Assembly (NCBI GenBank): GCA_029204225.1
Contig: CM055092.1
Location: 87,036,537 to 87,100,536, forward strand
Source of the DNA: Diphasiastrum complanatum
Lineage: Eukaryota; Streptophyta; Lycopodiopsida; Lycopodiales; Lycopodiaceae
Direction of reading: 5' to 3'
DNA: 64,000 bases
Of this stretch, positions 4,715 to 45,249 are shown piece by piece. The position numbers and the translations under genes are program-made. The notes below the pieces were generated by a model, which was not told the DNA's origin, ran no database searches, and saw only the letters and a program-made list of their open reading frames with translations. Every line of letters begins with the position of its first letter. Position 1 is the first letter of the stretch.

Positions 4715-5434
4715 CTGGTGGTGGTCCCACGACACCTCGCGGAATTATTCATTTTGGGCTCTAGTTCTGCTCGCATTGTACCTTGATGAGATGGTACTGC
4801 ACCTTCTCCATGAATTTCAGGCACTTCGTATGCTCGTTTGAGCATCCCGAAGACGGTTTTGAACCAGTTATATGGCTTTAGAGGGGCCTTGGCTATCTTG
4901 GTTTGGGACTCAACTATCCTATGCAAAATCTGTGAGGAGATGTGCTCTTTCCTGAGGTTCCCAACCATCAGGAAATTATTGAGGAGTCGAGCATCGACAT
5001 GGATAGCAGGGTCAGTAATGGCCTCTAGAAGATAGCTGTCATTTGTCTAATACAAATCATTGGTAAGTATCAATATAAGGCTTAATAGTCTGTTTGACTT
5101 GTTTATGGTTCGGTGAGGCTTGGTTTCCAAGCACTATCCCTATGGCAGCAAGGGCGGCTTCAGTTACGCGCACCTTGTGTGTGGCTCTTTGAAAGGGAAT
5201 ATAAAATTTGGATTTCTCCTCTTTCCAAGTACTGAAGGCAGGAGTAATAAAATTCATGTTAATTTTCCCTTAGAAGGCTCTCTCATAAATACCCATTGTA
5301 GTGAGCAGAGGCTCCGCAAGGGTCATCCATTGAGTGACCATGTTTGTGCCAGGAAGGATCATGATGTTCATTGCAAATGGGACATCACGATGGATAGTAT
5401 AGTGAGGAGACTGAGACGTATCTGTGGAAGACAT
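4699..5434 (-). pseudogene. unrecognised retroelement 3' ORF, copy 1 (N-terminal part)
   Basis: I do not recognise this family. Reading starts at an ATG at 5434 (MSSTDTSQSPHYT...), passes one in-frame TAA near 5271, continues in the same frame to about 5057 (...STWKEEKSKFYIPFQ...AIGIVLGNQ), then shifts frame near 5045 and runs through the PPT into the 3' LTR. It is clearly homologous to the start of the long ORF at 36435-39229. Aligned landmarks are TW(K/E)E, FYxxxQxxTxKV, IGIxxGxxxxxxHxKxxIKP, ITxPxIxxxxxLLxNFL and QxLxxIV. The copy lacks the Ser/Thr/Pro-rich and coiled-coil parts of the longer copy. Its place between an RNase H/integrase scrap and the PPT suggests an extra ORF downstream of pol. 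Confidence 0.6.
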
Positions 5435-5454
5435 GGTGAAACAAGGCCAGAAAC

Positions 5455-6130
5455 TAAAAGTAATGAGCGCGAGTGTATATTCCATCATGTGAAAACATGA
5501 TTAAATCAGGTACTTCATGCGGTAAAACACATATTTGAAGAATATCATCCATTCCGCGATGATACAATTGTCCTGCAATCAATTGATAAGGTCGAGCCTT
5601 ACGAATCAATTGCCTCTTTTGTACTTTTGTCAAGGAGTCATTAGGTTGACCTAGCATCAGATAGTCAACAATATCTGCTGCCCACTCAGTAACTGCTTCT
5701 ATATAGAATAACGTAGCATCTGGAAGTTCATCATTCCCTTCAGTATTAACTGGTGTAGATTCAATTTGTGAAACATGGTCGACGAGATAATGTTGTTTAC
5801 CATTCAAAGCATGACTCAAAAGTCAAATTCGGTCAATAATAGTAACCATCTTGCAATAGGCCCTGTATTACATGTTTTGTTTACCAAGTAAAGTAACGGT
5901 TGGTGATCCGTATAAAATGCAAAGTGCATTTTCATAAGATAATGTCAAAATTTCTTTACAAAGCAAATCATTGATAATGCTTCACGTTCTGTTGTCGAAT
6001 AGTTTTTCTCTGAATCCGTAAGTTGTCTGCTTGCAAATCATATGAGATAGTCTTTCTTGTATTCACTCGGCTGCATCAAAACTAATCCAATAGCATATTT
6101 TGAGGCATCGAACATGAAATTCAATCATCT
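5455..6130 (-). pseudogene. Ty3/gypsy RNase H and integrase zinc-finger fragment
   Basis: Minus-strand translation gives the RNase H segment FDASKYAIGLVLMQPSEY, FASRQLTD, EKNYSTTEREAL, then TDHQPLLYLVNK, ARWLLLLTEFDF and a linker. It ends in the H2C2 zinc-binding start of integrase (LIAGQLYHRGMDDIL...SHDGIY...H), where it stops abruptly near 5470. The same family, in the same order, is found at 43083-45248 on the plus strand. Several in-frame stops and frameshifts are present. RNase H would remove the RNA template during reverse transcription, but this copy is broken and lacks RT and the integrase core. Confidence 0.75.
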
Positions 6131-7929: not shown

Positions 7930-9850
7930 CATTCTTGTTCTTCCTTCTAACTTGCCCCCATCATTAGCCCTTGTCCCTTAACTTCTAACCTTTGGCGCTT
8001 GGGGCCTTAACCCTTGACTCTTGGTTCTTAGTTCATAGCTTGTGGACCCTAACATTTGGCCCTTAGCCATTGGCCCTTGGCCCTTGGCCTTTCATCCTTT
8101 GTCCGAGCCCTTGGCCTTTCACCATTGGCCCTTAGTGCTTCGCCCTTGGCCCTTAACCCTTGGACCTTAACACAAAACCTAACATCCAAAACTTTAAACC
8201 CTAAATCCTAAATCCTAAACCCTTAGTCCTAACTTTAAATCCTAGATCCTAGACCCTTAACGCTAAAACCTAAATTTTGAACTCTAACCATTGGCACTTA
8301 GCCCTAAGTCCTAAATCCTAAACACTAAATCATAAATCCTAAATTCTAAATCCTAAGCCCTTAGCCCTAAACCCTAAACCATAGATCCTAAGCCATTAGT
8401 CCTAAGCCATAAACCCTAGATCCTAAACCCTAAACCCTAGACCCTAAACCCTAGACCCTAAACAATTAGCCCTAAATCCTAATCCTTAAAATATTGACCC
8501 TAAATTTTAAACTCTAAACTCTTAGCCCTAGATCCTAAACTCTAAACCCTAGATTCTAGACCTTAGCCTTACACCTTAAACTCTAAACCCTAAGTTTGAA
8601 ATCCTAAACCCGAAATCCTAAAATTTAAACCGTCGATCTTTGGTCCTTGGACCTTAATTCTTAGCCCTTGGCCCTTAACCCTAATTTCTAAACTCTAAAC
8701 TTTAAACTCTTAGTCCTAACCCAAACCCTAGATCCTAGACCCTAAACCCTAAACTCTAAACCCTAAATCCTAAACTGTAAAACCTAAATCCTAAACTCTA
8801 AACCCATGGCTCTAAACCCTAAACTCTAAACCCTAAACACTAAATCGTAAACCCTAAGCCCTTAGCCCTAAATTCTATACTCTAAACTCCAAGCCCTTAG
8901 TCCGAAATCCTAAATCCTAAATCCCAAACACTAAACCATAAGCCTTTGGCCCTCGTACCTAAACTTTAAACTGAAAACCAAAAACTGAAAACTCTAAATC
9001 CTAAATCCTAAACCTAAATCCCTTAGCCCTATCTCCTAAACCCCTAGCTCTAAACCCTAAACCCTAAACCCTAAACTATAAGCCCTGAGCCCTAAATAAA
9101 TAATAAACTTTAAATTTTAAATTCTAAATTCTAAATCCTATACCCTAAATCCTAAACCCTAAACCCTTGATCCTTGGACCTTGGACCTTAATTCTTAGCC
9201 CTTGGCCCTTAACCCTAAATCCTAAACCCTAAATCCAAAAAAATAAATTCTAAACCCTTAGCCCTAACCCTGAACATGAAATCCTAAACCCTAAACCCTA
9301 ACACCTAAACTCTAAATCCTTGGCCCTTAAATCTAAACCTTAAACTTTAAACCCTAAACACTAAATCCCAAATCCAAAGCCCTTAGCCCTAAATCCTAAA
9401 TCCTAAACTCTAACCCCTAAGCCCTAGACCCTAAACCCTTAGCCCAAAATCCTAAACCTTAAACTCCAATCCTAAAACCCTAAATCCTAAACCCTAAACC
9501 CTATTCTAAATCTTAAAATCTTAGCCCTAAACCCTAAATCCCTAGCCCTAAGCCCTTAATCCTTAATTCTAAACCCTTAGCCCTGCACTCTAAACCCTAA
9601 GTCATAAACTCTAAATCTGAAATCCTAAACTCTAAACCCTTGATCCTTGGTCCTTGGATCTTAACTCAACCCTAAACCCTAAATCCTAAATTCTAAACCC
9701 TTGGCCCTAAATCCTTAGCCCTAATCCTTGTCCCTAAACCCTAAACTCTTAGCCTTCTAACCCTAAATACTAAACCCTAAATGCTAGAATCTAAATCTTG
9801 AACCCTAAACTATTGGCTCTTAACACTAGACCCTAAATCCTAAACACTAA
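7930..9850 (+). repeat. degenerate interstitial telomere-like heptamer array
   Basis: About 1.9 kb of imperfect 7-base units based on CCCTAAA (plant telomeric repeat TTTAGGG on the other strand). Variants include CCTAAAT, CCCTAGA, CTCTAAA and CCCTTAG. The first 230 bp and a later patch (8630-8690) use a related CCCTTGG/CCTTGGC series. Short perfect runs occur (for example 8420-8460 and 9055-9075), but most units differ by one or two bases. The C-rich strand is the plus strand. The array carries no gene. Confidence 0.85.
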
Positions 9851-10165
9851 ATCTTATTCATAGTAGGCTTCAAATGAAGTCTTTGAGTCGACTGCTTTAG
9901 TGCTTGAATAATTTTGCAGATCCCATGGAGTAGATATTGCTTCAACCCAAAATTTCTAGGGTAACTGAGCATTTGATAACATTGATTGTGCAACATTGAG
10001 TAAAGATCGGATCGGTTCTTCCTTTCAGCTATTCCATTCTGTTGTGGAGTGTAGCTGGTGGTGAATTGATGATGAATGTCGCATGATGATAGATAGTCTG
10101 ACATATATGCTCCTCCACTATTAGTGCATAGGGTCTTGAGTTTTTGACCAGTCTGTCTTTGTGCA
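9848..10165 (-). pseudogene. Ty1/copia integrase fragment, inverted
   Basis: Minus-strand translation reads TGQKLKTLCTNSGGAYMS, then TTSYTPQQNGIAERKNR, the conserved region around the third acidic residue (E) of the copia integrase core. It ends at the telomere-like array. About 45 bp (10118-10162) are the reverse complement of 11095-11140, where the plus-strand copia fragment breaks off. These two pieces therefore look like one element whose downstream half was inverted. Confidence 0.75.
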
Positions 10166-18512: not shown

Positions 18513-19164
18513 CTCAGCAAGTAGTTCAACTAGTTTGATCATATTTGTTTTATTTCCATATTTGGCATATTGAGGCCAACTTTGTTTTTAGACTTAGAGA
18601 TTGACTTTTCAAAGTTCATTAGTCTAAATTTCATTTGAATAGACACTTTTTGAAAGTGTGGGAAAGTTAGAAGGCGAGTTTGAGTAGCTTCAGATTTGAA
18701 TGTTGGGTACTTTGAATCTAGACCCAAAAATAATAGGGTTAGCATTTTGGAGGGAAATCCAAGTGGCCAATTAGGGTTTAAACCTGTTATAAAAGAATGC
18801 AACTCATGGAGAGATTGATCTTCTCTCTTCTCTATCTCATTTCATGCTTATACATGGTTCTCTTGGGTTCTACTATCCATTGGTGCACTATACTTGTGAT
18901 TGCATGCAATTTTATGTGTAGAATGATCTATATTTGTTATTTTTGGATCCACACGTGTGATATACAGTAGCTTGTTGGTTTTGTACGGATAGAAATAGTA
19001 CTTTATCATTTCATTCAAGTTTGATATAGTTCTATTATTGTTTGCATCTCATTTTGTGTGCAGATGCTGATTTTTTCTACATTGGTGAGATTGGTAGTGT
19101 ATTTCTCTTTCTAACCAAAGATCTTTCAAGTGGATTGGATCTTAATGATCTGAAATCTTTCACG
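18513..19164 (+). repeat. copia LTR, left arm (plus orientation)
   Basis: About 650 bp matching, in opposite orientation, both the solo LTR at 44406-45055 and the LTR at 21368-22126. Shared strings are 'caactagttt', 'catattgaggcca', 'cacacgtgtg' and 'ttggtgagattgg'. It ends in TCTTTCACG directly before a degenerate PBS. Its left edge is eroded. Confidence 0.75.
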
Positions 19165-27648: not shown

Positions 27649-27913
27649 TGTCAAGAATAAAAAATGCAACATCAAGCATTCACCATAAAGGATCACCAAG
27701 TAGGGAGACGGAAGAAGAACACGCAATATCACTCTATCACACTAACTTCATACTGAATATAAAATGTACATATAAACCCTGAACCCTGATAGAGAGAAAA
27801 AACCTACTAATAGACTAATAGACTAGCCTACGGCTAATTACAGTTGGTAACAGTTATCAACATTAATGTACATCGTAAACAGTACCAATGAAGTTTATCA
27901 TTGATTTCTAACA
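27649..27913 (-). repeat. 3' LTR of element B
   Basis: Plus strand TGTCAAGAATAA...TTTCTAACA. Same length as the 5' LTR, with about 16 differences by eye (~6%). Confidence 0.95.
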
Positions 27914-27922
27914 CCCTCCCTC
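27914..27922 (-). other. polypurine tract of element B
   Basis: Minus strand GAGGGAGGG directly before the 3' LTR start TGTTAG. Confidence 0.85.
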
Positions 27923-27989
27923 AATGATAAAATTACATTCTTCTATTCCTATAGAGTACAAAACCTCTCAAATTTATATCTACCTAGTA

Positions 27990-30330
27990 AAAATATCCGC
28001 CATTTTATTTGATCTTTAGATTTACAAAAAACAATATCAATGGTTCCATCAACTCTCCAATAAAATGATAGTGTATTTCGATGTGCTTGGTTCGAGCATG
28101 TAAAACTGGATTTTTGGCAAGGTAAATGCAGCTTTGATTGTCGCAAGATATAGTAGTTGCATCTATCTGTGGCTGACCTAAATCCATAAGCAATTTTGTA
28201 ACCATACCGCTTCTTGTGTAGCATTGTTGAGTGCTCGATATTCAACTTCCATTGATGATAAAGCTATTGTAGGTTGTTTTTTGCTGCTCCATGAAATTGC
28301 AACTGTACCATAACTGAATGTATGACCACTGGTAGATCTTCTGTCATCAATATTACCTGCCCAATCGACATCTGTATAATCTACCAACACTGGCGCTTCA
28401 GGTTGATCATACTTCAAACCAAAATTCAATGTCTCTCGAATGTATCTGAGAATACGTTTAGCGGACTTCCAGTGTGCTTGACTAGGATCTTGCATAAATT
28501 GACTAACAACACCAACAGCAAAAGAAATATCAGGTCGTGTGTGTGTCAAATACATCAAACTACCCACCAGCTGTCTATACAAATAAGCATCCACTTTCTC
28601 AAATTCATCATATGTAGTAAGCTTCAAGTTGACATCCATAGGTGTACTCAAGGGCTTACAATCCTGCATATTGAACTTATAAAGCAAATCTCGTGCATAT
28701 TTGCTTTGTATAAGAAAGACCATGTCTTCTTTTTGCCATACTTCAATGCCAAGACAGTAGTGCATCAATCCTAAATCACTCATGTCAAAAGCATTGGAAA
28801 GACTTGATTTGATTTCATTAATTAACCTCTCATTACTTCTTGTAATAATCAAATCATCCACGTACAACACAATAAACACTATATATGAATCTTGCCTTAG
28901 AATGTAAAGATTAGGATCAGCATCACTCTTTACCATTCCCCTTCGCTTGAAGTGCTCATCAATGCAAGAGTACCATGCTCGTGGTGCTTGTTTCAATCCA
29001 TATATGGCTTTGTTGAGTTTACAAACCAAATGATCTCTTGCTGGCTCAACAAACTCTTGAGGTTGTTCTAAATATACCTCTTCATCCAATATTCCATTAA
29101 GAAAAACAGATTTGATGTCCATTTGCTGGATTTTCCAATCATAGAAAGCAGAAATTGCAATGATAGAACAAATAGTTAACATTTTGGCTACAGGTGCGAA
29201 GGTCTCCTCAAAGTCTATACCTTCCTGCTGCTCAAAACCTCTTGCAACTAATCGTGCCTTGTATTTGTTGAGTTGCCCATCCGCTCCATACTTCATCTTG
29301 TAGATCCACTTACATGTGATAGGCGTCTTACCATCAGATAGCTCAACCAAGTCCCACATTTTGTTCTTCGATATAGCCTCCATTTCTGTTTCCATAGCTA
29401 CACACCACTCCTTGTGTTCCTTTGCTTCGTTGAAAGTTTTAGGTTCTTGAGCCGTTAAGATGGATCCCATTAGGGCTAGATTCATCTCTAATCTTGCAGG
29501 AGGTTTTTGATTTCTACTTGATCTTCTAAGCTCTCCCTACTCACTAGATTCGAGAGTATCTCCCTTCTTTGCACCATCTGTGACTGATAAGTACCATTTA
29601 GGTACTCTCTTGGGAATTTCAGCATCAGACTTGCCTTTGTCCAATGGATTTCTATATCAAAATCCACTGCCTTTTTGACCTATACTTTCACTCCCTCATC
29701 AAAAGGTTCAGTGATTACTTCAGATTGTCTATCTTGGTCTATCTCGTCAAACGTAGAATCTCTAGAAATTACAAGCTTCTGTGCATTTGTGTCATATATC
29801 CTGTATGCCTTGGCCTTCTCATCATATCCAAGGAAAATACACTTGATAGCTTTTACATCCAATTTCCTTCGTTTCTCATCAGGAATATGAGCATAAGCAT
29901 CACAACCAAATACTCTCAAGTGAGAAATATTAGGTTTCTTTCCAGTAACAGCTTCATGACGTGTCTTACCTTCCACGGATTTTGTAGGACATCGATTCAG
30001 GATGTGCGTAGCTGTGCTACAAGCTTCTACTTAAAAGGTGTTTGGCAGACCCTTGCTTTTGAGCATCGCTCTGGCCATCTCAACAATAGATCTGTTCTTT
30101 CGTTCTGCAACTCCATTTTGTTGTGGTAAATAAGCTATTGTAGTCTGCCTCTTGATCCCTTGATCTTTGCAAAAATCAATAAATTCTGTCGAAAAACGTA
30201 TCCCATGTTTCTTCTGGTCCTTCTGAATCCGAAATGTAGGGAATAATTGCATCTCTAACTGATAAGTTGATGACATTCTGTGCTTTCCGTTTTCTCTTGT
30301 CAAATGTCCGTTGATCTTCTTCAATCAATG
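27990..30330 (-). pseudogene. copia element B integrase - reverse transcriptase - RNase H
   Basis: In order on the minus strand: integrase end (30324-30031: STEFIDFC, PQQNGVAERKNRS), the linker CDAYAHIPDEKRR with KCIFLGYDEKAKAYRIYD (29976-29680), then a 435-codon frame (29485-28178). That frame holds the RT (KWIYKMKYGADGQL, ARLVARGFEQ, QMDIKSVFLNG, YGLKQAPRAWY, active site YVDD near 28860) and RNase H (DWAGNIDDRRSTSGHTF, WSSKKQPTIALSSMEVEYRA). A frameshift near 28190 separates the RNase H tail (SCDNQSCIYLAKNPVLHART, KHIEIHYHFI). The RT itself is open and has its active-site residues. Stops and frameshifts in the linker and tail make the polyprotein non-functional as a whole. Confidence 0.9.
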
Positions 30331-31407
30331 GCCTTGTCTCTTCACCTGTCATGATCTCCCATAGCTCGTTTTCCATCAAAATGTTCTTTAGTTTGAATTT
30401 CTAAACTGCATACTTGCCGGCTCCTTTCAATTTGCTTGACACATTGAGGACACTCTCGCTTAGAGTTGCCATTACTGAATAGATGAGTCCAGATCAAGTA
30501 ATTTATCACACCACAAAACTGTATATTTTTCTGGTTATACACCTGATATCGAAATGGAGCGCGGAAGTACGGCTGCTCAGGATCCTCTTCAACTTGTGCG
30601 CTTGGATCCGATATTGGAGCATGCGATATTGGACTGGAGCACGGATGTACAACTGCTAAGAATTCTCTTTAGCTCGTGCGCTTGGATCTGATATCGGTAC
30701 GGACATGCGATATTGGACTAGAGCGCAGATGTACGGCTGCTCAGGTTTTCCTTCAGCTAGCGTGCTTGGATCCGATATTGGTAAAAAACGAGAATATAAG
30801 AACTTTCAAAGAGAATATTTCAGATTTCCTACTTCGGCGCGGCAACTACGCCGCCTCCTCTTTGCTTAGATTTCGAAACGAGTGATCATTCAAACAAACA
30901 GATATCAGTAATGTGAAAGGGATGAAGCCTCAAAGCTCTAAATGGCAGTACTAGACACTGTCTAGTGTGATTTGCAGTACTCCAAACAAACAAATGAGAG
31001 ATTTCTTGGCACAACTCTAACAAATGATACTTTTCACAAAGACTAAAAAAGATATTGTAAGACTTTTTTCACTCAACAGATTTTCAATCTGTCTGATGCT
31101 GCCCTGGCCTTTTGGATGTCTCCGGGACTGCGCTTTTCACAACAACTAGGAAGTATTGTAAAAATCTCCCCACTCAATAGATTTTCAACTTGTTTGATGT
31201 TGCCATGGCCTTTCTTATGCCTCCGGGACTGTGTCTTTGTTCCCCACTGATGATTCTGAGCTCCAAACCTGCAAAATACACCAAAGAAGGATTTTTTCCA
31301 GCCGTTTTGATCTCTCCAAGCTTTCACCTCCCGTGAAGGACTTTCTCACTTCGTTGCGGAGCTTGTGACAAGTTGTATCCACTGATCAGGCACGCAGGAC
31401 TATTGCC
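30331..31407 (-). pseudogene. element B leader and reduced gag
   Basis: Only scraps are recognisable: TRPLIEEDQRTFDKRKRK and CPQCVKQIERS, which could be the Gag middle and knuckle. Integrase N-terminal parts and protease are missing. Positions 30540-30780 contain three imperfect copies of a ~80-100 bp segment around 'gcgcttggatc(c/t)gatatt' and 'gtacggctgctcagg'. Confidence 0.5.
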
Positions 31408-31419
31408 GCTCTGATACCA
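31408..31419 (-). other. PBS of element B
   Basis: Reverse complement TGGTATCAGAGC, immediately inside the 5' LTR. Confidence 0.9.
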
Positions 31420-31684
31420 TGTCAAGAATAAAAAATACAACATCAAGCATTCACCATAAACAATCACCAAGTAGGGAGACAGAAAAAGAACACGCAATAT
31501 CACTCTATCACACTAACTACATACTGAATATAAAATGTACATATAAACCCTGAACCTTGATAGAGAGAGAAAACCTACATATAGACTAATAGACTAGCCT
31601 ATGGCTAATTACAACTGGTAACAGGTGTCAACATTAATGTACATCGTAAACAGTAACAATGAAGTTTATCATTGATTTCTAACA
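31420..31684 (-). repeat. 5' LTR of element B
   Basis: 265 bp. Same TGTCAAG/CTAACA ends as the 3' LTR, followed by the CAAAG duplication. Confidence 0.95.
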
Positions 31685-31689
31685 CAAAG

Positions 31690-32578: not shown

Positions 32579-32735
32579 TTCAATCTGTTTTGCATGCAAC
32601 AAAATTTGAGTATTAGTTATCTTTTTATGCTTAGCATGGGTATGGATTCTTTGTAATTACTTTATTTATTTATTTTCAAACATTGAAAGTTGCGATACAG
32701 ATGACTGTTGAAGCTCTAGAAAAGAAGAGAACCAT

Positions 32736-33625
32736 GTGCTTGCTAAATCTGTGAGATCAGTATCCTCTCGCAAGAGCTTGTCTTCCTCTACCCAAAAAGA
32801 CACCCAAACATCTGATTCTACCACGGGATCAAGATTAATGTCAACTTTAAAGAGAAAACATAGTGGTTTGAAAAAAACAAAAAAAACATCCTCCCCACCT
32901 AAATCGAGAGGATTTAAAGCAAAGCTTGCTAAAGGAGTACATCCTAGCCTTCAGCCCCAGACCTCTAATTTAAATTCACCTGGGGCTAGAATTAATCTAG
33001 AGCCGGCTAGCAGGGATGTTGCCAAGATGCGCCAAATAATTCATGAAACTAAAAAAATCCAAGCCACAACGTTCATTCTTGACATTGAACAATGTGATAG
33101 GCCCCCAATTGACCCAGTCATCGGTGATAGGCCCATGGAGGTGAGAAAGCCTAATTTCTCTCATGTATGTAATTTAAAAATAAAATTTAAAGACCACACC
33201 CAAGCCATTGTTATCCCATTCATTGTCCTTGTGGACCCTGCTGATTGTTCGACAGTAGCAAATTTTGATGTCCAAATTATAGACACTTGTAAATTTTTTG
33301 TTTTGGGTGGAATCCATAGTTTGCAAGCCAGAAAGGAGCTCTCCATAGAGTATCCTCATGTACAGTCATTTAGACAAGTTAGTGCTATAATTTTTGTTGA
33401 GTTGATAGTTGAGGAAGCCAAGCTCCTTGCTTGGGATCATATTATCGACCAGGATTACAAGCTCAAGATGATTGTTATTCACAGCACAAAGAAGGAAACA
33501 AAACTAATATACAATTGAATTGTCTTTGTGCACAAGAGACTGGACTTCCATTTGATGAGAAAAGTCCAGCCTCCTCACTTACGAAATATGACAATTTTTT
33601 TCAGTTGGCCTTCTGAAGAAGGCAG
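32736..33625 (+). pseudogene. ParB-like domain exon of a ParB/DNA-methylase-type gene
   Basis: A 260-codon open segment. The first ~95 residues are Ser/Lys-rich and basic (LKRKHSGLKKTKKTSSPPKS), like a nuclear, disordered N-terminus. From residue ~135 the fold-like part begins: VCNLKIKFKDHTQAIVIPFI, VDPADCSTVANFDVQIIDTC, FFVLGGIHSLQARKELSIEY (residues ~186-205) and EEAKLLAWDHIIDQDYKLKM. The GG-x-H-S/R-x-x-A motif and the following L-A-x-x-H-N-like helix are typical of ParB/sulfiredoxin-like nuclease domains. A frameshift near 33518 would continue to a donor at 33626. No ATG heads the frame (its first triplet is GTG, not credible here), so a 5' exon is missing. An acceptor-like CTCTAG ends near 32720. 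It lies directly downstream of copia element A. Confidence 0.5.
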
Positions 33626-33710
33626 GTAGTTTTTGTTCTTAGGAATTTTTTTGTTATTTCATTTTCTCAAATCAAATTATAGTCCTTTAAGAAATTATTT
33701 TTTGTTTCAG

Positions 33711-34604
33711 ATTTGGGACCTTGTCGATAAAATTTTTGACAAGTGGGACAAATTTGAGATAAAATGACAACTTTCAAAAGGGGCGTCCTCCCAAAAAAAA
33801 AAATCCACACAATCCACTCTTGCCACCATCCTTCAAGATATGGGAATATCGGAGTGGAAGGATATGCAAGGCATCCCATCAAAGGATGTGGTTGTGAGTG
33901 TCTTGTCGAGAGTTGTTGACGGACAACTCAGCCTTACTGAGATGGGGAAATAATTTCAAAGGTAATTTTGATTTTCTAAAACAAGATTCTTATTTTAACT
34001 CAGTTGCAAAAACTTGGATCTATCATTGTTTTTGTTCAGATACAAGCTTTTCATAAAAGTGCAAGAGGCTATGGTAAAGAGCCTGAATTGCAAGGATTGG
34101 GAGGAATGCCAACGGCTGCACCCAAGCAGCTCAAAAGATGAAGAGTTGCAAAGATTTCTTATTTTTATAGAGATATGGTAAGCTTTTTTACATAAATTGA
34201 CTTTAATTTGCCAATTTGCGAATATTGTTTATGCTAAGCATGGGTGTTTGTTGTTAACTATTTTGTAGATTGTTAGTTTGACATCGTTATTCATGCTTAG
34301 CATAAGTTTTTATCACTTTTAATTTTATGTTGTGCATTTAAGAGCCCATGCTTATCATAGGTGCACCTCTGATACCCTTACTTTTCTTTAGTTAATTGTT
34401 TTTAAGATTGTCATTCATGTTTAGCATAAGTGTATTTTTAATGTTTATTATTTTCTTTTGTATTGCTGTTTTTTAAGATTATCACTCATGCTTAGCATAA
34501 ATTTATGTCACTAGAAACAATTTTTATATTTGAATGTCATGCTTAGCATAAGTGGATTTCTACTCTTGTCAAGTTTGCAATGCAGGGATAGAGAACACGA
34601 TTTG
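33711..34604 (+). pseudogene. middle exons of the ParB/DNA-methylase-type gene
   Basis: Three exon-like pieces with good splice signals. The first is 33711-33961 (after TTTGTTTCAG; IWDLVDKIFDKWDKFEIK, stop, then LATILQDMGISEWKDMQGIP, VVVSVLSRVVDGQLSL; donor GTAATT). The second is 34040-34177 (after TTTGTTCAG; KLFIKVQEAMVKSLNCKDWE; donor GTAAGC). The third is a 19-bp mini-exon, 34586-34604 (AATGCAG/.../GTAAGT). In-frame TGA and TAA codons show decay. I recognise no domain. They are assigned to the same gene because they lie, in the same strand and style, between the ParB-like and methylase-like segments. Confidence 0.4.
34231..34552 (+). repeat. intronic 14-bp repeat, consensus ATGCTTAGCATAAG
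   Basis: Six copies at 34231, 34293, 34348, 34417, 34488 and 34539, spaced 51-71 bp. Another lies at 32627, in the stretch before the ParB-like exon. Each is a near-palindrome (ATGCT-TA-AGCAT type) at the 3' side of a T-rich segment. Confidence 0.8.
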
Positions 34605-34710
34605 GTAAGTACTATTTTTAATTAAACATATATATTTACAAGTCTTTTTAATATTTTTAATCATGTTACATTATTTGGTTTTTTAATTATTTGCTTTCAA
34701 CGTTTGTAAG

Positions 34711-35262
34711 TACAAGCCAAATGTGTGCAATTTTGGTGGTGCACGTCTTTGTAATGAGATCGAATATCTCAGCATCGGTTATTTCTCTACCGATGAAAAG
34801 AGATCCATGTTGCACTACAACATTGTAGGAAACACGAAATTTTGGAAATCATTTTGATTTTCCTTCAGTGACAGAAAATTAAAAAATCCAATGACTGGTT
34901 CTGTGGCTTGTCCATATCAAAAGCCACAACAACTTGTAAATAAATTAATTGAAATGTTTTCTCATCCCACAGACTGAATTTTAGATTTATTTAGTGGTAG
35001 TGGCACTACTAGTGCATGTGCTGTCCAAAAGGAGAGACATGTTGCGGCCGTAGAATTAGATGAGAGTTTATCAAGTATGAGACTAGCTGGTATTCTAGTT
35101 TTGCCTGATGAATTTCAAGAGGTTGGTAAATTAGACCCCTCTGAAGACAATATCGTTCAATTTGTTAAGGAGCCTCAACCACCTGCTAGTGGTGTAGTTG
35201 GTAACGAAGGAGAACTGGCTGAGGTGGTTGAGCAAAGATACAATGTGGTAGAAGAATTGTAA
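34711..35262 (+). pseudogene. DNA N4-cytosine/N6-adenine methyltransferase, C-terminal half
   Basis: Translation from an acceptor-like TTTGTAAG: EIEYLSIGYFSTDEKRS, then PMTGSVACPYQKPQQLVNKL, IEMFSHPTD, ILDLFSGSGTTSACAVQKER, HVAAVELDESLSSM. The KP-x-x-L-x-x-x-L-I segment followed by the DLFSGSGTT motif (SAM-binding motif I, at about 34984-35010) and a xxVELD end is the C-terminal signature of beta-class amino-methyltransferases (N6_N4_Mtase family), where motif I follows the catalytic D/N/S-PP-Y/W motif. That catalytic motif should lie upstream and is not visible. Two in-frame TGA codons (in KSF*FSFSD near 34855 and PTD*ILDLF near 34976) are each one G-to-A change from Trp. An acidic tail ends at TAA 35262. 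Enzymes of this class methylate the exocyclic amino group of A or C in DNA. Confidence 0.6.
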
Positions 35263-35965: not shown

Positions 35966-36434
35966 GTTGTGCGAGAGATCACTTCCTGCGAGAGTTGAAC
36001 CCCCGCAGACAGTCTGAACTCTCGCAGAACCTTCGCATGGCAGTCAAATCACCTTTTGAACTCTCGCAGACTTCCCTAAGATCTTAGAATTTTGTGAAGA
36101 AGGTCGCTGCCAAAATGTGGGTGGAACTGAGCAAGGGAAAGTGGATTTCACCTAATACGCACGCTAAATTCCGCTATATAAGGGCTGAATTCGAGTCATT
36201 TGTCACCTTTGCTAGCGAAGCTCTACCGAAATTTACACTGAAATTACCAAGTTCTCTGTTTGCGATCAAACTTCCTACCAGCTATCATCTGCTCATATTG
36301 AACACTGATCTGTACTCTGAACTACAATTCTTGTCATTCAACACTCGTTATCCACAGTTTTCTGTCGTTTCCACACCTTTTTATCTTTTCCACCATTTTT
36401 TCTACTTTTTCGTCCTTTAATCATCACCGCTAAT
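35966..36434 (+). promoter_or_regulatory. promoter-like region with TATA box upstream of the long ORF
   Basis: Contains TATATAAG at 36175-36182 and a pyrimidine-rich leader running to an ATG at 36435 (253 bp after the TATA box, context TAATATGGCC). Upstream, 35966-36075 holds repeated GCGAGAG/CTCTCGCAG motifs (at least four, on both strands). It could be a cellular promoter or the promoter part of an LTR. No second copy is in the window to decide. Confidence 0.45.
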
Positions 36435-43082: not shown

Positions 43083-44400
43083 ATCAATTATTGAGCATAC
43101 CATACCCTTAATGCCTGATGCAGTTTCAAAGGTCACAAGATTCTATCGTTGTAAACCTAATGTTACGGATTTGATAAAGAAAGAGTTACAGAGATTGCTT
43201 GAAGCCGATTTCATTTATGAGATCGAGCACACTGAATGGGTTTCACTAATTGTCATTATTTCTAAGAAGAATGAAAAATTGAGATTTTGTGTGAATCTCA
43301 AGGTCTTGAACAAAGTGATGCGAAAGGATCACTTTCCGTTACCTTTTACTGAAAGCATTTTGGATCGCCTTGCTAGAGCAGAAGCTTACAGTTTTTTAGA
43401 TGGATTCAGTGGTTACAACCAGGTCAAGATTGCACCTGCAGATCACCACAAAACAGCTTTTGCAACAGAGTGGAGAACTTATGCTTATAAAGTAATGTTG
43501 TTTGGACTCTATAATGCACCAAGGTCATTTCAAAGAGTAATGCAGTTTTCTTTTAAAGATTATCTACAGAAATTTCTTGAAATATACTTGGATGACTTCG
43601 GAGTCCATAGCATGGATACAGACCATCTGGATCGATTGGAAAAAAAATTTGAACATTGTCATAAGTACCAAATTTTCTTAAATCCAGAGAAGTGTCAGAT
43701 TTGGATTTCTCACGGAGTTGTTTTGGGACATGTGGTATCAAGACATGGCATAGCTACAGATTATTCCAAAATCAAAGTTATTGTGGAATTACCACCGCCA
43801 GCAACAATTTGTGGAGTTTATGTGTTTATGGGTCATGCGAATTATTATCGAATTTTCATTATATTTTGACTATTGTTCCTATTTGGACAGTTGAGGCGTT
43901 AGAAGCCTTTGAAAAATTAAAAAAAACTTTAGCTTCGGCACCGATACTACATTCTCCAGATTGGACAATTGAATTTCATGTTCACACTGATGCCTCAAAA
44001 TATGCAATTGAATCAGTTTTGACGCAGCCAAGTGAATACAAGAAGGACTATCTAATACGATTTGCAAGCAGACAGCTTACAGATCTAGAGAAGAACTATT
44101 CAACAACATAACGTGAAGCGTTAGCCATGATTTTTTCTGTACGAGAAATTTTGACATTACCTCCTGGAAACGCACTTTGAATTTTATACAGATCATCGAC
44201 CGTTGCTTTATTTGGTAAACAAGACGTGCAATATAGGGTGTATTGCAAGATGGTTACTTTTACTGACCGAGTTTGATTTTTGAGTTGTGATTCGTAAGGG
44301 AAAACAACATTATCTCATTGACCATGTTTCACGAATTGAATCTGCACCAGTTAATACTGAAGTGGATGATGAACATGCTACGTTATTATATGTAGAAGCA
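43083..44400 (+). pseudogene. Ty3/gypsy reverse transcriptase and RNase H
   Basis: RT frame of 252 codons from HTIPLMPDAVSKVTRFYR: KKELQRLLEADFIYEIEHTE, SKKNEKLRFCVNLKVLNKVM, FSGYNQVKIAPADHHKTAFA, the active site YLDD (43585-43596, in place of the usual YVDD/YIDD), NPEKCQIWISHGVVLGHVVS. A frameshift near 43865 leads to RNase H: ALEAFEKLKKTLASAPILHS, FHVHTDASKYAIESVLTQPS, FASRQLTDLEKNYSTT, stop, REALAMIFSVREI, then HYLIDHVSRIES and TLLYVEA, where a solo LTR interrupts it. RT and RNase H copy the element RNA into DNA. Same family as the fragment at 5455-6130. Confidence 0.9.
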
Positions 44401-44405
44401 GTACC

Positions 44406-45055
44406 GGTGAAAGATTGCAGATCATTATGATCCAATCTACTTGAATGATCTTTGGTTAGAAAGAGAAATACGCTACCAATCTCACCAATGTAAAAAAATC
44501 AGCATCTACACACAAAATGAGATGCAAACACTAATAGAACTTGATCAAACTTGAATGAAATGAAAAACTATTGTTGCTTTCCATACAAAACCAGCAAGCT
44601 ACTGTATTTCACACGTGTGGATCCAAAAATAACAAATATAGATGATTCTACACATAGAATTGCAAGCAATCACCAAGATAGTGCACCAATGGATAGTAGA
44701 ATCCAAGAGAACCATGTATAAGCATGAAATGAGATAGAGAAGAGAGAAAATCACTCTCTCCACAAGTTACATCCTTTTATAACAGGTCCAAACCCTATTT
44801 GGCCACTTGGATTTCTCACCAAAATGCTAACCCTACTAATTTTGGGTCTAGATTCAATGTACCCAACTATTCAAATTTGAATCTACTCAAACTCACATTC
44901 TAACTTTTCCACACTTTCAAAAAGTGTTTATTCAAATGAAATTTAGACTAATGAACTTTGAAAAGTCAATCTCTAATTCTAAAACAAGTTTTGGCCTCAA
45001 TATGTCAAATATGAAAATATAGCAAAATGTGATGAAACTAGTTGAATCTTTCACA
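44406..45055 (-). mobile_element. solo copia LTR inserted in the gypsy RNase H-integrase linker
   Basis: 650 bp, plus strand (G)GTGAAAGATT...AATCTTTCACA, homologous to the LTRs at 18513-19164 and 21368-22126. It is flanked by the perfect 5-bp duplication GTACC (44401-44405 and 45056-45060). The first base of the expected TG end is mutated to G. No internal region remains, as expected after LTR-LTR recombination. Removal restores the gypsy reading YVEAVPEWVADIVEYLML. Confidence 0.95.
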
Positions 45056-45249
45056 GTACCTGAGTGGGTAGCGGATATTGTTGAGTACCTGATGCTAGGG
45101 AAACCTCATGACTCCTTGGCAGAAGTATAGAAGAGACAATTAATTCATAAGACACAACCTTATTAATTGATTGCTGGACAATTGTATCATCGCGAAATGG
45201 ATAATATTCTTCGTAGATGTGTTTTACCGCATGAAATGCCTGATTTGAA
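45056..45249 (+). pseudogene. gypsy integrase H2C2 zinc-binding start (continuation)
   Basis: PEWVADIVEYLMLGKPHDSL, then LIAGQLYHREMDNILRRCVL, PHEMPDL. It continues the element split by the solo LTR and ends abruptly at about 45248, where RNase H of another gypsy family begins in the same open frame. Confidence 0.85.

Follow-up and report, generated by a model that had tools for sequence, protein, structure and literature searches.

The locus examined here raises the question of what kind of gene, or of mobile DNA, brought a DNA amino-methyltransferase into the genome of the lycopod Diphasiastrum complanatum. It lies in a 64,000-nucleotide stretch (contig CM055092.1, positions 87,036,537 to 87,100,536, forward strand), hereafter called the window, in which a sequence-only reading had placed, at 32627 to 35262, the decaying remnant of a multi-exon gene with a ParB-type domain followed by a beta-class amino-methyltransferase. 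We found that the remnant belongs to a large family dispersed through the genome, and we lean towards reading it as a dead member of a high-copy family of plant DNA elements whose methylase would act on the element's own palindromes. The layout seen in relatives is a leftward DUF7869 gene, a palindrome array, and a rightward gene encoding a ParB-like part joined to a beta-class-type amino-methyltransferase. The sequence-only reading was right about the gene remnant; it made no mention of the opposite-strand DUF7869 gene of the relatives, the palindrome, the family's high copy number or the loss of the catalytic exon.

As judged from profile matches, the C-terminal half is part of an amino-methyltransferase of the N6_N4_Mtase, beta-class type. 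With X written at its two stops, the translation of 34702-35259 matched Pfam N6_N4_Mtase (PF01555) with an E value of 5.6e-13 and 49.8 bits against a cut-off of 26.7; the stop-free part of the window exon alone scored 19.5 bits, and a copy from the second lineage described below (L063) scored 33.9 bits. The exon also matched PHROG methylases and the PDB structures RsrI, CcrM and MboIIA. KPQQLVNKLIE and DLFSGSGTT, which the sequence-only reading had assigned to one such enzyme, stand in a single exon (34711..35262, plus strand, with two internal TGA codons and a stop TAA at 35260), and its QKPQQL and DLFSGSGTT are what we take to be motifs X and I. Relatives of this part among phages amounted to 373 records, all below 60% identity, and viral contigs gave none for either the C-terminal part or the catalytic exon. 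In the plant relatives, an exon with ADIPYGF, or a sequence near it, follows the second middle exon and precedes the C-terminal one, so that the presumed motif IV stands upstream of the exon with QKP and DLFSG and motif I is C-terminal, as had been expected. The residues D-I-P-Y were identical in 11 of 11 aligned relative frames, five of which came from the window's genome and were selected by motif likeness, the six others, fern-like, being selected by homology.

The ParB-like and methylase halves belong to one gene, as indicated by their pairing across the genome (below). GT/AG pairs are present in the window, and the exon set and order recur in relatives. All parts of the gene lie on the plus strand. 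The ParB-like exon (32712..33625) has a Ser/Lys-rich N-terminal part, a GGIHSLQA box and LAWDH, and is open over 32712-33518. Its 268 amino acids are more than any frame reached in simulations of matched composition: the maxima were 208 and 199 in two sets of 1000 at 2.8 kb, and 252 in 60 at 64 kb. A frameshift (near 33483-33495) and then a TGA (33614-33616) interrupt the exon, and its reading goes on in frame over 33413-33616. It is followed by a GT..AG intron (33626..33710), which has no counterpart in the fern-like copies, where the flanking exons form one frame, and by the exon IWDLVDKIF...LSRVVDGQLSLTEMG (33711..33961), which lies between the ParB-like part and the methylase and contains stops. 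A second GT..AG intron (33962..34039) leads to the exon YKLFIKVQEAMVKSL... (34040..34177), which is matched in relatives and ends at a donor at 34178. By comparison with relatives, 34178..34569 is the remainder of an intron joined to a deletion of most of the motif-IV exon. The tail of this catalytic exon (34570..34604, QVCNAGIENTI plus two bases, about the last 12 codons) gave a weak tblastn match alone (E 1.2) and was assigned because of its position and its likeness to L035, the nearest-subfamily copy, which retains the motif-IV exon at 5267-5731. A donor GT at 34605 opens the last GT..AG intron (34605..34710) before the C-terminal exon, so that the GT/AG pairs are 33626/33711, 33962/34040 and 34605/34711. 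The intron-containing gene and its decay were both read correctly from the sequence; the supposed start at 32627 is instead one of the family's iterated palindromes, ATGCTTAGCAT (32627..32637, unstranded), in what remains of intron 1, and at several loci relatives also have it in the gap between exon 1 and the ParB-like exon. By its sequence the window copy is dead: it has a frameshift and several stops, and it is without the catalytic core, exon 1 and the DUF7869 gene, no copy of which was found in the window. A small contig (G000:C4240:3479-6027) carries a near-identical copy with one TAA in the ParB-like exon, probably an alternative haplotype of the window locus.

Relatives elsewhere in the genome, whose existence the sequence-only reading had raised, are numerous. 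In the 1,744,706,496 bases searched, we counted at least 143 matches to the ParB-like exon (of 2287 candidates), 150 to the catalytic exon (of 2472) and 150 to the C-terminal exon (of 3095); these are lower bounds because only the best candidates were scored, and the other candidates are unproven. Scored ParB-like and C-terminal copies were spread over contigs C1 to C23. A Rubisco search gave only three short fragments, which along with the Copia and Gypsy elements are the signs of a plant genome in the assembly. At 16 of the 143 ParB-like places a C-terminal place followed downstream, same strand, at a distance of no more than 4 kb, where 0.025 would be expected, and at 18 within 12 kb; the other arrangements occurred never (downstream opposite, upstream same strand) or once (upstream opposite). 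Around the catalytic-exon places, 34 C-terminal places lay downstream and 26 ParB-like places upstream on the same strand, although the zero orientations of this count are weak, since all 150 places were compared with 35, 35 and 15 partner places selected by eye. The halves, whose assignment to separate genes would have undone the sequence-only reading, thus keep their order and strand in paired genome matches. Twenty ten-kb loci were extracted, 11 with both parts in the match lists and nine with a stop-free ParB-like frame, and in five of the latter nine the C-terminal exon was present downstream. The catalytic exon and the first exon (MSRISFK...) were each found in 17 of the 20 loci, and 12 contained pieces of an upstream gene on the opposite strand. 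Two pairs among them, L033/L034 and L037/L038, are segmental duplicates, 99% alike.

The copies have a common right end. In seven of the 12 loci inspected, similarity stopped at ...GGTCATCATGTT (or ATATT), with six different flanks beyond it, L037 and L038 being duplicates. The right-end 20-mer has 885 genome places with at most two changes versus 21 for its reversed control; note that its A-rich half may add chance matches. Dispersed copies that share an end but not their flanks are what a DNA transposon would leave, and a transposon-carried methylase had been one of several options offered from the sequence alone.

The opposite-strand upstream gene of the relatives encodes a DUF7869 protein (PF25273, E 1e-45, 156.2 bits versus a cut-off of 26), and the analysis ties this domain to a repeated element. 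The genome gave at least 150 scored matches to it among 2953 candidates, with none in 14 control genomes. The matches extend as far as 40.9 Mb along contig C23 and 7.96 Mb along C24, and about two dozen contigs are chromosome-sized. Where a DUF7869 match lay within 12 kb, it was upstream and on the opposite strand at five of six ParB-like places and at eight of 10 C-terminal places. The exceptions were downstream on the same strand, and one of them is a divergent family at L042. This second DUF7869 family (L042, 9256-9899 in gene orientation, 33% identity) lies near the element. The boxes LDN..ENKN and GHTHDQID of the DUF7869 gene resemble, as we take it, those of DDE transposases, and the protein is probably the transposase of the element.

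Palindromes are arrayed between the two genes. In the window, the exact short form ATGCTNAGCAT occurs five times, all inside the remnant, compared with 0.12 expected, and none of 100 shuffles reached five. Within 34178..34569, exact copies lie at 34231, 34293, 34488 and 34539, and copies with one change at 34348 and 34417. Genome-wide, CCTATGCTNAGCATAGG has 2141 exact places versus 0 for its control, and the short form was found in 19 of the 20 loci. Placement was determined in 15 of these (L035, L042, L043, L046 and L048 were left out), with borders set from BLAST hits. There, 108 exact palindromes were intergenic (6.65 per kb), nine were in intron 1 and 32 were in the intron that precedes the catalytic exon (13 per kb); none fell within the gene spans, 34.5 kb with three other introns counted in, and one fell in the 88.5-kb remainder, which includes the DUF7869 gene and the right tail. 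Hence 149 of 150 were in non-coding parts of the element. Telomere-like TTAGGG repeats were also observed in the divergent promoter region of one element (L032, 1885-1928).

Selection on the gene parts was estimated from Nei-Gojobori counts as omega, the ratio of nonsynonymous to synonymous divergence, with synonymous divergence (dS) partly saturated. Values were obtained for 25 of 28 C-terminal, 14 of 28 ParB-like and six of 10 catalytic pairs, the rest being saturated, too close or too short. For the C-terminal exon, omega was 0.12-0.24 in pairs with dS above 1 (0.35 in one pair) and 0.48-1.25 in close pairs (dS below 0.33), with a median of 0.16. For the ParB-like exon, where the median was 0.36, distant pairs (dS above 1.6) had values of 0.10-0.13, a single intermediate pair had 0.21 and close pairs ranged over 0.27-1.19. 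Both exons are therefore under purifying selection between subfamilies and decay within them, the pattern of a moving lineage that needs the protein and whose landed copies decay. On copy number and this decay pattern we reject a host gene fusion or a lone pseudogene.

A second lineage was obtained by scanning prokaryote genomes with the C-terminal alignment. Of seven loci, one was a Chloroflexi methylase matched over 55 residues, and six (L058-L063) came from one metagenome-assembled genome (MAG) titled uncultured Trichormus (CAKZGI01). These six have the gene, with 41-43% identity over its ParB-like portion. In four of them (L058, L061, L062 and L063) the ParB-like part forms one frame of 549-559 amino acids directly upstream of the methylase exons, again joining the two halves; L059 has one stop in this frame and L060 is cut short. 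In all six, the catalytic exon and the C-terminal pieces are in separate frames. The MAG also has eight DUF7869 matches, seven of them in open frames of 873-924 amino acids, and, matched by contig number, DUF7869 frames of 529, 873 and 888 amino acids lie upstream and opposite on the contigs of L060, L062 and L063. At L060 the N part of the partner gene (31.7% identity, E 5e-25), upstream and opposite, is joined directly to the ParB-like exon, which looks like the result of a deletion. Trichormus azollae lives in Azolla, and all six loci are from one MAG, so that host fern DNA in the MAG bin seems a simpler reading of these contigs than a bacterial origin. Given that two gene parts are conserved across subfamilies, and across plant lineages if the contigs are from Azolla, the methylase protein would be part of the element's life.

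From these results we propose that the DUF7869 protein would mobilise the element as its transposase. Less surely, the methylase protein would target the palindrome arrays of the element itself, through its N-terminal part or its own site preference, and would methylate amino groups there (N6 of adenine or N4 of cytosine), and the divergent promoter might thereby stay active, or self-regulated, against the plant's silencing by 5-methylcytosine (5mC). The mode of action would be like that of the VANC proteins of Arabidopsis VANDAL elements, but enzymatic. The window copy itself is incapable of this role because only the tail of its catalytic exon is left, and exon 1 and the DUF7869 gene are gone.

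A number of results weigh against this proposal, beginning with the N-terminal part. The ParB-type core of the sequence-only reading is unproven: a by-eye resemblance with a likeness below significance. Of the two profile matches expected, N6_N4_Mtase was obtained, and ParB was matched in none of Pfam, PHROGs and PDB. An hhalign comparison with six phage N-terminal domains (a weak reference set, of which one had been scanned, falling below the Pfam cut-off, and one was annotated ParB-like) gave probabilities of 4-6% and E values of 0.007-0.01, with only the GG-x-H box aligned. When copies were scored with a ParB hidden Markov model, the best two of 10 (5.1 and 4.4 bits) each beat 300 of 300 shuffles and two scored below 0, and unrelated window pieces overlapped this range (three of 92, at 4.1, 4.6 and 6.4 bits). 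With both lineages aligned, the H of the GG-x-H box is invariant, and the R that follows in ParB is R only in L046 and S in most copies. Two of four fern-like frames had a weak DUF6551 match (E 0.07-0.08) covering the box, a fold search with a poor-quality model of the ParB-like part returned nothing at E below 0.001, and phages, plasmids and viral contigs yielded no relatives of this part. The domain may be a remote ParB/sulfiredoxin relative. The AlphaFold2 models of the ParB-like part and of the DUF7869 protein were too poor to use. The exon sought between the two halves is present in relatives; its motif IV is DIPY, not the textbook D/N/S-PP-Y/F/W pattern, and because DIPY is a variant the catalytic claim is made by analogy. 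No selection was demonstrable on the catalytic exon (omega 0.47-1.36 in six of 10 pairs, all within one subfamily) or on the DUF7869 gene (0.66-0.87 in four like-with-like pairs, the only usable ones because the other six of 10 compared different regions). Five of the 12 loci end elsewhere than at the common right end. The left terminus and a target-site duplication were not seen in the sequence fetched, which stops before the left end; by eye, 400 further bases on that side still resemble DUF7869-gene coding sequence, neither truncated copies nor the right-end motif yielded a pair from which to place the left end, and no inverted pair of that motif was apparent by eye among 100 listed places of the 885. 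In the fern-like loci, where intergenic DNA is scarce, no copy of the palindrome was found. The literature searched contained no mention of DUF7869, whose transposase activity is presumptive here, and binding of the palindrome by the protein, like N4-methylcytosine (4mC) or N6-methyladenine (6mA) in the plant, is a prediction.

A different assignment of the palindromes is possible, though we think it somewhat improbable: they could be binding sites of the DUF7869 transposase, comparable to the subterminal repeats of En/Spm and Mutator, with the methylase acting genome-wide or on excision or repair intermediates. The arrays lie between both genes, so that either product may bind them, and many DNA transposons have iterated internal transposase sites. 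A dense array (13 per kb) far inside the methylase gene, within the intron that precedes the catalytic exon, is less expected from such sites, although it is still compatible with transposase binding.

An explanation without mobility, in which the copies are a high-copy host gene family or dispersed duplications, would account for the unseen left end and target-site duplication and for the 99% alike segmental duplicates, but we regard it as very improbable in view of copies on contigs C1 to C23, the right end shared by seven of 12 loci with unrelated flanks, the selection and decay pattern, the DUF7869 partner in fixed layout, and the same layout in contigs resembling another plant. We give hardly more credence to the view that the fern-like contigs are truly bacterial, as their record titles say, and that the plant copies of a bacterial gene are later transfers: the gene there is divided into exon-like frames as in the plant, a frame at L063 (3790-4239) is Gypsy-retroelement-like by eye, and six of seven loci come from a single MAG, while Trichormus azollae lives in Azolla.

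In the window, retroelements border the remnant on both sides: a Copia fragment stops at about 32610, and an element that looks by eye to be of the long terminal repeat type starts near 36000. Outside the remnant, a Copia element on the minus strand (27649..31685, with 266-bp ends 94% alike) is nested in another Copia copy, which has parts on both sides and adjoins the remnant at about 32610. Elsewhere in the window, we observed a satellite-like array at 8056-9856 (repeats 68-75% similar; GC skew -0.57 over 8001-10000) and, at 5503-6125, 18525-19163 and 43968-45246, blocks of repeat shared across the window that are 84-91% alike and unrelated to the remnant.

Several known systems bear comparison with the proposed element. 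As far as the available parts of the papers describe it, VANC binds DNA and carries DUF1985 and DUF287, and its motif, YAGTATTAY, is arrayed in one orientation (PMC5735166, PMC10398659), and arrayed motifs together with an accessory protein can undo silencing (PMC10398659). The same parts indicate a similar organisation: a transposase gene is accompanied by an accessory one, and a short motif is repeated many times in non-coding DNA, both within introns and ahead of the transposase gene; the palindrome layout is much like that of the VANC21 motif in VANDAL21 (PMC5735166). Here, however, it is a methylase domain that the accessory gene carries, the motif is palindromic, and DUF1985 and DUF287 were not among the Pfam matches of the gene's parts. 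VANA belongs to a transposase family other than DUF7869. The element may thus work like the VANC system but is not one. Transposons with their own DNA methylase have been described, namely DAM in DIRS and C5 methylases in Ty3/Gypsy and DIRS elements (PMC6338049, available parts). Those are retroelements, whereas here a methylase of the N6_N4_Mtase kind stands beside DUF7869; no reverse transcriptase was noticed in the element-span frames of five loci, for which no formal scan was run and the left part was unread. The phage methylase M.PhiCh1-I (L002) similarly has an N-terminal G-x-H-box domain followed by an N6_N4 methylase. It gives a weak Pfam ParB_N match (PF02195, E 5e-5, 23.7 bits, cut-off 26.3) and the plant protein gives none; the plant gene is set apart by its introns, its additional exons and DIPY. 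The bacterial-type amino-methylases MpDN4MT1 of Marchantia and N4CMT of rotifers are described in the available text as host enzymes and not as transposon parts (PMC8566409, PMC8885841); compared by description only, they share with the present gene their type and their presence in eukaryotes.

Vascular plants were said, in the part of the source available, to be without transposon-encoded methylases (PMC6338049), and a 2019 paper, in its accessible part, has land plants without methylase-carrying transposons. In the literature listings and abstract openings surveyed, no description of this element family was found. If the family is mobile and its genome that of a vascular plant, to which all the signs here point, it would contradict that stated lack in land plants. 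It is also conceivable, though less likely than not, that vascular plants contain transposon copies by the hundreds to thousands with their own enzyme placing 6mA or 4mC, marks of bacterial type, at palindromes, as an anti-silencing signal of self-recognition that would be neither made nor removed by the plant 5mC machinery. The analysis defines a candidate enzyme and a candidate target site for non-5mC DNA methylation in plants.

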